Assembly (NCBI RefSeq): GCF_015277775.1
Contig: NZ_CP063849.1
Coordinates: forward strand, 8,199,501 to 8,263,500
DNA length: 64,000 nucleotides
Reading direction: 5' to 3'
From: Paludibaculum fermentans
GTDB lineage: Bacteria; Acidobacteriota; Terriglobia; Bryobacterales; Bryobacteraceae
Under the pieces are notes generated by a model, which was not told the DNA's origin, ran no database searches, and saw only the letters and a program-made list of their open reading frames with translations. Shown piece by piece: positions 45,434 to 48,535 of the stretch. The stretch's first letter is position 1, and each line of letters starts with the position of its first letter. Both the position numbers and the translations under genes were made by a program.

Positions 45434-45462
45434 TTGATAATAAGTGTTTTCTCGGGTATATT
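45434..45462 (+). promoter_or_regulatory. promoter of the PEP-CTERM gene
   Basis: TTGATA (45434-45439), a 17-base spacer and TATATT (45457-45462) form the best housekeeping-type promoter in the window. The leader that follows contains a hairpin (CGGGCAGT-loop-ACTGCGCCCG) before the Shine-Dalgarno AGGAGGGG. Confidence 0.65.
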
Positions 45463-45545
45463 CGGGCAGTAGTAACTGCGCCCGGAAGTTTCTTGGGAAG
45501 TTTCTGAGAGCGCTTTTATTCGCGGCAAATAGGAGGGGAATAAAC

Positions 45546-46337
45546 ATGAGGCTATTGACTAAATCAACGCCTGCGCAACTAATGATGCAACTGGCAGCTT
45601 TCCTGGTAGTTACGGCAGGAATGGCGCAGGCCATACCGATTTACGGAACCATCAGTCTTGGAGGCACGGCTGAGGTCACACAAACCACCATCGACTTCGC
45701 GCCGTTCGTACCCGGTGCAGCGGTGGATGGCACCGGGCAGGTGGTTGCCACCGGGCCAGGGGCCGGAGCCTTCTCGCCATTGGTATTTGGTGACCAGGGC
45801 GCCATCGTCGACCGCACCGTGGCGGGTGGTATCGTGCCGCCACAACCGGCCGGAGTACCGATTTTCGTCCTGAACTGGCTGACGTTCACCAATGGCGCAT
45901 TTCGGTACGCCTTGGACCTGACGTTTATCGACATTGGTGCGTACGGGTCGGCAGATTGTACGACGGCTCCCGCAAATGGCCAGACATGCACTCCGTCGGC
46001 GCCAGCACCCTTCCAGTCGCCATACAGCCTCTCCAACTTCTTCGATTCGACCAGCGGATTGTCCTCGAACGCGAACTTCTCGGTTCGGGGCTTTATGCGG
46101 AACCTTGACACGGGCCTGAACGACTACGCCTTCAACGGGGTTTTTGGCGCGGAGTTCCTCGGGCAGCCGTACCAGTCTGTCCTTGCGACCGTTACCGCGG
46201 GCGGCAGTGTGGTGGCCAGTTACAGCGCCACTATCAACGCGACCGCGATTCCGGAACCTTCCACCGGGCTTCTGACGTTACTTGGCGCGGGTTTCGTGGC
46301 GTTCGGCGTCATGCGCCGGCGGCGGAATAGAGCATAG
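45546..46337 (+). CDS. PEP-CTERM sorting domain protein
   Basis: A 263-residue exported protein starting at ATG 45546, with AGGAGGGG eight bases upstream. The N-terminal AAFLVVTAGMAQA is the signal peptide. The body is a beta-rich domain with one cysteine pair (DCTTAPANGQTC). The C-terminus is IPEPST, a hydrophobic helix (LLTLLGAGFVAFGVM) and RRRRNR, the exosortase sorting signal. It has its own promoter and a strong terminator, so it is monocistronic. Confidence 0.93.
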   Translation: MRLLTKSTPAQLMMQLAAFLVVTAGMAQAIPIYGTISLGGTAEVTQTTIDFAPFVPGAAVDGTGQVVATGPGAGAFSPLVFGDQGAIVDRTVAGGIVPPQPAGVPIFVLNWLTFTNGAFRYALDLTFIDIGAYGSADCTTAPANGQTCTPSAPAPFQSPYSLSNFFDSTSGLSSNANFSVRGFMRNLDTGLNDYAFNGVFGAEFLGQPYQSVLATVTAGGSVVASYSATINATAIPEPSTGLLTLLGAGFVAFGVMRRRRNRA

Positions 46338-46911: not shown

Positions 46912-47766
46912 ATGAGACTTCCATGCCAGGACCGCACGAGCGCAGGTAGACGGCACGTGGTACTTGCGCCCGAATCGACCGGAATCCCCGGTTCATTCGG
47001 GAGAATCGCGACCAGTCCCGAGGACTACCAGCGAATGTTAGGCGAAGTGCAGCGGCTACGAGGGCGGATTGCGATGGAAGAAGGTGCGCTGCAGGCATCC
47101 CAGCTTACTCCGGACGGGCGCGACGCCTCTGCATTCGATTCACTCGCATGGCATTTAGTGGCTCTCGGCGCGACCGGCAGAGTGGAAGGATGCGTGCGCA
47201 TGCTTGTCCACCCTCGCCAGCCGAAGTTTGAGAATCTGATTGTCAGCCGAACCAAGCTGGCGGCGTGTCCGGATCGTGGAGCAAAACTGCGATCCGCAGT
47301 GGAGGCAGAGATGCTTTTCGCGCAAACTTCCGGCGCCATGGTGGTGGAAGTTGGCGGGTGGGTTCTGTCCGAGCAGATGAGGGGGACGGCGGAGGCTGTC
47401 CGCCTGGCCTTGGGGGTATGGGCTTGGGGGCGCCTGCTTGGCGGCGCGATCGGAATCGCGACGGCCACTACACGGAATCACTCGGCTCATATCCTGGGCC
47501 GAATCGGCGGACGTCCACTGGAGTACCGCGGCGAAGTGATCCCCAAGTATTTTGAGCCCAAGTATGGGTGCGATATACAGATCATGCGCTTTAAGAGCGA
47601 CTCCTACAGCGACCGATTCGCTCCGATCGTGGATTCGATGACCGCTGAGTTGATCCAGTCGACGGTGCTGTCGGCCGGCAAACCTGCAGGCAGGTTTACG
47701 CCAGCCCTTGGCGCCGGGCTCCATATACCTCCGGCCGAGCTGGCTTTCGCCGGACTGGCGAACTAG
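46912..47766 (+). CDS. N-acyl amino acid synthase FeeM-like (GNAT fold)
   Basis: A 284-residue protein starting at ATG 46912 with AGAGGA upstream. The segments LAPESTGIPGSFGRI, TPDGRDASAFDSLAWHLVALGATGRVEGCVRML and GGWVLSEQMRGTAEAVRLALGVWAWGRLLGG resemble FeeM-type N-acyl amino acid synthases, which are related to autoinducer synthases and join an acyl-ACP chain to an amino acid. The late region RPLEYRGEVIPKYFEPKYGCDIQIMRF also fits. It lies downstream of a PEP-CTERM gene but has its own leader. Product unknown. Confidence 0.65.
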   Translation: MRLPCQDRTSAGRRHVVLAPESTGIPGSFGRIATSPEDYQRMLGEVQRLRGRIAMEEGALQASQLTPDGRDASAFDSLAWHLVALGATGRVEGCVRMLVHPRQPKFENLIVSRTKLAACPDRGAKLRSAVEAEMLFAQTSGAMVVEVGGWVLSEQMRGTAEAVRLALGVWAWGRLLGGAIGIATATTRNHSAHILGRIGGRPLEYRGEVIPKYFEPKYGCDIQIMRFKSDSYSDRFAPIVDSMTAELIQSTVLSAGKPAGRFTPALGAGLHIPPAELAFAGLAN

Positions 47767-47831: not shown

Positions 47832-48167
47832 CTAAAACGCCCCCCACTGGGTCTCGTCGAAGCCGAAGAGGATCCTGCCATCCCTGACGAGCAGGGGGCG
47901 TTTGATCAGGTTCGGATTGGCCGACATCAGGCGAATCGCCTCGGCCCGGGGGGGCGGGTTGGTTTTCATGTTCATCTCGCGATAGAGCTCGTTGCGAGTG
48001 TTGAGGAACGGGAGGTGGTCGGCTTTGCCGATCAACTTGTCGAGCTCAGCTTCACTCAGGCCTTTGTTCAGATCGATGGTCTCGGGCTCGATCCTGCGTT
48101 CGGTCAGGAAACTCCTGGCCTTGCGGCAGGTGGTTCAAGTGGGTTTCGTATAGAACTTCAGCGCCAT
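47832..48167 (-). CDS. ArsC/Spx-like thioredoxin-fold protein, candidate selenoprotein (UxxC)
   Basis: Read through one in-frame TGA, this gene encodes 111 residues starting MALKFYTKPT at ATG 48167, with AAAGGAA upstream. Codon 11 is TGA (48137-48135), where ArsC/Spx-like proteins have the first Cys of CxxC; TTC with Cys14 follows. The rest is a complete family member with the NLIKRPLLVRDG cis-Pro motif and a normal TAG stop. A 19-base hairpin 14 bases behind the TGA fits a bacterial SECIS. The likely role is a redox enzyme reducing a disulfide, selenide or oxyanion. If Sec is not inserted, only ten residues are made. The rhodanese gene lies 32 bases upstream. Confidence 0.8.
48102..48120 (-). 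promoter_or_regulatory. SECIS-like hairpin behind the in-frame TGA
   Basis: On the minus strand GGCCAGGA-GTT-TCCTGACC forms seven pairs with one C-A mismatch. The three-base loop starts with G and U, and 22 bases separate it from the TGA. This fits the usual bacterial SECIS rules (a G among the first loop bases, loop 16-37 bases from UGA). Confidence 0.7.
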
Positions 48168-48199: not shown

Positions 48200-48535
48200 C
48201 TAGTAGCGGGCCACGCCCGGGTCGATCTGCGCGCTCCAGGCGTCAATGCCGCCCGTCATCGACGTGCAATTCTCCACACCCTGACGGCGGAGCCAGTTGA
48301 CGACGTTCAGACTGCGAACGCCATGGTGGCAGAACACGATGACTACCTTTTCGTCGGCGAGTTCCTCCAGGTGCTGCAGCTGCTGGGGCACCGTGTTCAT
48401 GGGGATCAGTTCCGCGTCATCGATAGCGCAGAGCAGGTGCTCGTTTGGTTCGCGCACATCGATGAGAACAGCCTCCCCGGCGTCCAGCTTCGATTTTGCT
48501 TCAGCGGGCGTCAACTCGTAGGACAGTTCGGCCAT
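48200..48535 (-). CDS. rhodanese-like sulfurtransferase
   Basis: A 111-residue single rhodanese domain starting at ATG 48535 with AAAGGA seven bases upstream. The catalytic loop is CHHGVRS (Cys69), preceded by VLIDVREPNEH and followed by WLRRQGVENCTSMTGGIDAWS. It carries sulfur (or selenium) as a persulfide on Cys69. It is the first gene of a likely two-gene unit with the ArsC/Spx-like candidate selenoprotein. Confidence 0.93.
   Translation of the reverse strand: MAELSYELTPAEAKSKLDAGEAVLIDVREPNEHLLCAIDDAELIPMNTVPQQLQHLEELADEKVVIVFCHHGVRSLNVVNWLRRQGVENCTSMTGGIDAWSAQIDPGVARY

Follow-up and report, generated by a model that had tools for sequence, protein, structure and literature searches.

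ArsC-family selenoproteins with a UxxS motif were predicted from the Sargasso Sea, in a paper that also gives a G in a small apical loop as a feature of the bacterial SECIS element (PMC1088965). A 2006 survey has ArsC-like selenoprotein entries and counts three selenoprotein families in Acidobacteria (PMC1794560). In the 2008 ocean survey a table row headed 'arsenate reductase 2' gives cd03032, UxxC and 42 sequences (PMC2398784), and it is this survey that the ArsC UxxC entry of a 2022 review cites (PMC9312934). A 2026 review gives the ArsC-like UxxC family as NF041106 (PMC13188914). Literature searches, judged by titles and the openings of abstracts, turned up no paper on an ArsC/Spx selenoprotein of Acidobacteria. 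We take cd03032 to be the Spx subfamily of ArsC. Since UxxC ArsC-like selenoproteins were predicted in 2008, the novelty of the gene described below is lowered.

The gene lies in a 64 000-nucleotide stretch of the Paludibaculum fermentans genome, called the window throughout, and its features are collected in Table 1. A first-pass annotation, made from the letters of the window, had picked out an otherwise intact ArsC/Spx-like frame with TGA at codon 11, a retained Cys14 and a normal stop, and its coordinates were confirmed. This TGA is the one internal stop in the frame and sits at the first Cys of the CxxC of the ArsC/Spx family, with the second Cys kept. The cis-Pro motif that had been reported was recovered as Arg90-Pro91, of which we take Pro91, by analogy with the family, to be the cis-Pro position of the thioredoxin fold. 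A Shine-Dalgarno-like stretch was also found, as had been claimed, though its spacing from the ATG is rather long. A standard gene caller would leave 10 codons of this gene, or start at a downstream TTG (48035) to give a 67-residue frame.

Table 1. Features of the predicted selenoprotein locus, in window coordinates.
Feature	Position	Strand	Details
Single-domain rhodanese gene	48200-48535	minus	Pfam PF00581, 60.1 bits; upstream, with 32 bases between it and the ATG of the selenoprotein gene
Shine-Dalgarno-like AAAGGA	48184-48179	minus	from sequence; ATG 11 bases further on
Predicted ArsC/Spx-family selenoprotein gene	48167-47832	minus	ATG to TAG (47834-47832), 111 residues, MALKFYTKPT-U-TTC...
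In-frame TGA, codon 11	48137-48135	minus	predicted to be read as selenocysteine; in orthologues TGA 40/47, Cys 7/47
Cys14, second UxxC residue	48128-48126	minus	presumed resolving Cys; invariant, 47/47 orthologues
Bacterial SECIS-like hairpin GGCCAGGA-GTT-TCCTGACC	48120-48102	minus	loop GUU 48112-48110; loop G 48112 invariant in TGA orthologues
Arg90-Pro91	47900-47895	minus	invariant across aligned orthologues

Two plus-strand frames lie on the other side of the gene. One, of 284 residues (window 46912-47766), is convergent with it and resembles GNAT acetyltransferases only weakly, at 18 bits where the cut-off is 22.4. The product of the other (window 45444-46337) ends in the tail IPEPSTGLLTLLGAGFVAFGVMRRRRNRA, presumably PEP-CTERM-like.

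By Pfam the product is a member of ArsC (PF03960, 66.3 bits against a cut-off of 24, residues 6 to 111). Its best NCBIfam model is the Spx/MgsR-related TIGR01617, whose cut-off of 75.05 it passes marginally with 75.5; ten further relatives scanned fell on both sides of this cut-off, six above and four below. With the selenoprotein models of NCBIfam release 20.0, neither the window protein nor any of 10 relatives scanned singly (matches to E 1e-8) scored up to a cut-off. The arsenate reductase model TIGR00014 gave the window protein 45.5 of 106.05 bits. The scan of the 10 relatives likewise led us to reject NF041106, arsenate reductase and Spx as their families.

NF041106 (ArsC_rel_Se_1, ArsC family (seleno)protein) resembles the window protein in fold family and in UxxC, and TGA is common to both. 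The window protein scores 30 of the 85 bits that this model calls for, and the best E-value among the 47 proteins aligned below was 9.8e-12. NF041106 is over its cut-off in three of 61 genomes searched (L103, L104 and L105), all from the window's own bacterial family; these three have no window-type orthologue, and the two genes never occur together in the 61. In our tree the three NF041106 members group by themselves on a long branch (SH-aLRT 100). Because the model is missed and its members stand apart, we regard the window gene as one more UxxC lineage of a kind already known. The 'arsenate reductase 2' of the Global Ocean Sampling data shares the ArsC family and UxxC with it but consists of ocean metagenome sequences, and the likeness is drawn from the published description and motif (PMC2398784). 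The Sargasso Sea proteins share the COG1393 family and Sec as nucleophile, but theirs is UxxS and the window protein has UxxC (PMC1088965).

The product could be thought a true arsenate reductase with a Sec nucleophile, as its Pfam match and the earlier predicted UxxS proteins (PMC1088965) would allow. We consider this quite improbable, given the low TIGR00014 score, a motif that is UxxC rather than UxxS, and two neighbours examined with Pfam that proved to be a rhodanese and the sub-threshold GNAT match.

The AlphaFold model of the window protein has a mean pLDDT of 91.8. Foldseek placed Spx at ranks 1-3, followed by ArsC-related proteins and YffB, with a query TM of 0.70-0.85 in the first ten, and by sequence the closest solved relatives are again Spx (53.5 bits). 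Spx of B. subtilis has its CxxC at the same place as the window protein. However, Spx uses Cys, and the window protein stays below the cut-offs of three Spx models (54.7 of 123 bits for NF002459, 37.3 of 152 for NF009885 and 31 of 159 for NF009210). The position of Spx Gly52 falls in a two-residue gap of the alignment to the window protein (residues counted by hand). Gly52 is required for contact with the alpha-CTD of RNA polymerase, and the alpha-CTD partner Tyr263 is reported as not found in Gram-negatives (PMC2801614). An Spx-like redox-sensing regulator that binds RNA polymerase and is no enzyme would suit the solved relatives and the TIGR01617 score, which six of the ten further relatives also exceed; the missed Spx models, the gapped Gly52 and the partner residue reported as not found in Gram-negatives make such a regulator unlikely.

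Orthologues were sought in 101 genomes, namely the organism's own and 100 relatives. Any match at E 0.001 was found in 60; E below 1e-20 gave 47 genomes with a single gene each, and all 47 were read. Two named public records (L050 and L051) duplicated L021 and L038 and were dropped. The orthologues are between 53% and 85% identical to the window protein; among named records the nearest belong to an uncultured acidobacterium (84%) and, next, an uncultured Bryobacterales bacterium (66%). At codon 11, TGA stands in 40 of the 47 distinct orthologues, TGC in five and TGT in two, counts that overstate the number of independent events because the relatives share ancestry. The in-frame UGA thus occupies the Cys position of homologues. 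The alignment with homologues that the first-pass annotation had proposed, with an eye to relatives in which the gene decays, turned up TGA or Cys only at this codon and, across the 47, no second in-frame stop upstream of about residue 104. For codons 12-104 dN/dS was 0.085-0.257 in the eight pairs computed, and therefore the region behind the TGA appears to be translated. A read error repeated at this codon in 40 genomes is very improbable.

A hairpin lies just downstream of the UGA, with a G in its small apical loop. The first-pass annotation had described it as starting 14 bases past the TGA, with a loop that starts with GU 22 bases past the TGA; the two distances and the loop start were borne out, with the correction that the stem is not perfect, as C48118 lies opposite A48104 in the window (fold.((.(((((...))))).))., -8.2 kcal/mol). 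In 23 of 39 distinct rows of relatives a C-G pair stands in place of this C-A mismatch. The 42 bases from the TGA onward align without gaps in the 40 TGA genes. All 40 can form the hairpin at the fixed distance and all 40 have the loop G (column 26), around which the stem takes such forms as GCCAGGA/TCCTGGC, GCGAAG/CTTCGC, GCAAGA/TCTTGC and GCTAGGA/TCCTAGC.

Two hairpin tests had loop constraints that were chosen post hoc, after the alignment had been inspected: a strict one, in which both loop bases were forced open and enclosed and the result was compared with random synonymous codons, was passed at p<0.05 by 37 of 40 TGA genes versus one of seven Cys genes; and a laxer one, run on 21 bases, that let columns 26 and 27 pair and, where unpaired, confined them to a hairpin loop, was passed at the same level by 38 of 40 versus none of seven. 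The Cys orthologue that passes the strict test (L058) comes from a genome (G077) without selB or tRNA-Sec at the thresholds used, and its hairpin may be left over from a Sec form since lost.

Other measures gave weaker results. By whole-segment folding energy, just two of 40 TGA genes ranked in the bottom 5% of their synonymous variants; the median z was -0.57 in TGA genes and 0.19 in Cys genes (Mann-Whitney p 0.011). A count of stem pairs in a fixed register reached p<0.05 in 19 of 40 TGA and none of seven Cys genes, a weak result because the stems occur in more than one register. The same mixing of registers blurs the one-register pair count, in which 76.6% of pairs were standard and the covariation score was 0.196 versus 0.151 when shuffled, a value reached by none of 500 shuffles. 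Double changes occurred in just two of eight stem pairs, and 470 of 500 shuffles were equally high; with the partner slid by one column there were 13 and 14 double-change cells versus nine in register, that is, no fewer.

Codon usage under the hairpin points the same way. Ser19 is encoded by AGT in all 35 TGA genes that have Ser there, versus 22 of the 190 Ser codons at other positions of the 47 genes, and Arg18 by AGG or AGA in 33 of 34, versus 43 of 438 Arg codons elsewhere; this choice reflects the same pressure as the hairpin. By computation, then, the hairpin is under selection. In a more distant UxxC group (L085, L100 and L101) a different hairpin, GGCGGTCGCC, follows soon after the motif, and the recoding signal of that group may have been rebuilt.

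A single base separates TGC from TGA and some relatives do have TGC, so the window codon might be a nonsense mutation at the catalytic Cys of a pseudogene, or a miscalled TGC. This we regard as next to impossible with the TGA common to most distinct orthologues, no second stop before about residue 104, the low dN/dS behind the TGA, and a hairpin that rises above its null in nearly all TGA genes and in one of the Cys genes.

The presence of selA, selB, selD and tRNA-Sec, which the first-pass annotation had suggested looking up, was established for the organism's own genome (9.53 Mb, 2 contigs): selB scores 358 bits, selA 490 bits and selD 353 bits, and the tRNA-Sec has the anticodon tca (UCA). 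The selD gene (L052, G000:C1:9301580-9302485) has an in-frame TGA close to its start (GUASKLSP), at what we take to be the known Sec/Cys place of SelD, and therefore the selenophosphate synthetase is probably a selenoprotein as well. With thresholds of E 1e-70 for selB and E 1e-9 for tRNA-Sec, all 40 TGA genomes, own included, have one or the other (35 both, two selB only, three tRNA only). Both are missing in nine of the 101 genomes, all among the 61 without the TGA (Fisher p 0.011); one of the nine carries a Cys gene and the other eight are without an orthologue. The machinery is nevertheless present in six of the seven close-relative Cys genomes, and so is not by itself decisive for Sec versus Cys.

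The phylum was covered more widely by a profile search of 396 genomes (E 1e-15), which gave a match in 68, of which 28 were tested for selB. It was found in 18 of 18 genomes with TGA at the motif (17 called by script, G150, locus L094, by eye) versus one of nine without (seven read as Cys codons, G149 and G457 resting on the profile search only); G219 (L081), whose motif reading is unclear, is in neither group. TGA-bearing UxxC genes of this type are not confined to the window's class; several further families of the phylum have them too. Exchange between Sec and Cys took at least six changes on a 74-row tree that has few columns and many open forks and leaves out L081, L092, L094, L097 and L102, whose motif the script did not locate in frame. 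The tree is unrooted, so gain of Sec looks the same in it as loss.

Stop codon read-through is known in bacteria, and that precedent could be invoked for a mechanism free of selenium, either a programmed stop or read-through that inserts a different residue (near-cognate Trp or Cys). We judge it very unlikely, in view of the exact exchange with Cys, the hairpin with its loop G, the full Sec machinery of the genome and the distant genomes, where selB is missing in eight of nine without TGA and accompanies every TGA.

The claim of the first-pass annotation that the TGA codes for selenocysteine is thus supported by relatives, by a hairpin with changes on both arms and by the machinery, and we are nearly certain that selenocysteine is inserted at codon 11 and that the gene encodes a selenoprotein. 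In the mechanism that we propose, SelB carrying Sec-tRNA(Sec) would bind the hairpin, which starts 14 bases past the UGA, and so place Sec at position 11. The product would be a small, probably cytosolic oxidoreductase of ArsC/Spx fold whose active site is UxxC. Its U11 selenolate would attack an oxidised or per-thiolated sulphur, and Cys14 would resolve the resulting intermediate to a selenenylsulphide, which the cell's thiol system (thioredoxin or a low-mass thiol) would re-reduce. SelB binding, location and catalytic cycle are here carried over from the family, and the gene, the UGA/Cys exchange, the selection on the hairpin, the machinery and the fold were computed. By analogy with its fold family the product is likely a UxxC redox enzyme, a selenol-thiol oxidoreductase. 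Taken whole, SECIS-directed Sec at position 11 of an ArsC/Spx-fold UxxC oxidoreductase is very probably the best explanation of the locus.

The rhodanese gene directly upstream (Table 1) is likely on the same transcript as the selenoprotein gene. Such a rhodanese adjoins 17 of 40 Sec loci and two of seven Cys loci. Both genes are present in 21 of the 101 genomes and are adjacent in 19 of those 21. At E 1e-22, however, 26 of the 47 rhodanese genomes among the 101 are without the selenoprotein orthologue, and 21 of the 40 TGA genomes are without such a rhodanese, so the link between the two is loose. The neighbourhoods of 12 further loci were varied and gave no lead. We conjecture, tentatively, that the substrate might be linked to the upstream-encoded rhodanese, for example its persulphide or a thiol that it serves. 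A bolder and rather doubtful extension is that in a Bryobacterales-like lineage the Sec protein and the rhodanese might work as a two-gene relay for sulphur (or selenium), in which the Sec protein would read out or reduce the rhodanese persulphide and act as a Sec-based reactive-sulphur switch, not as a general disulphide reductase. If that relay were real, the phylum-wide UxxC lineage would be a distinct selenoprotein family missed by current curated selenoprotein models.

With TGA genes in other families of the phylum, and a window protein that falls below the curated ArsC selenoprotein model, the extent to which these bacteria use selenium may be underestimated. The repeated exchange of Sec and Cys, with and without the machinery, provides a natural series on the advantage of Sec over Cys in one enzyme.
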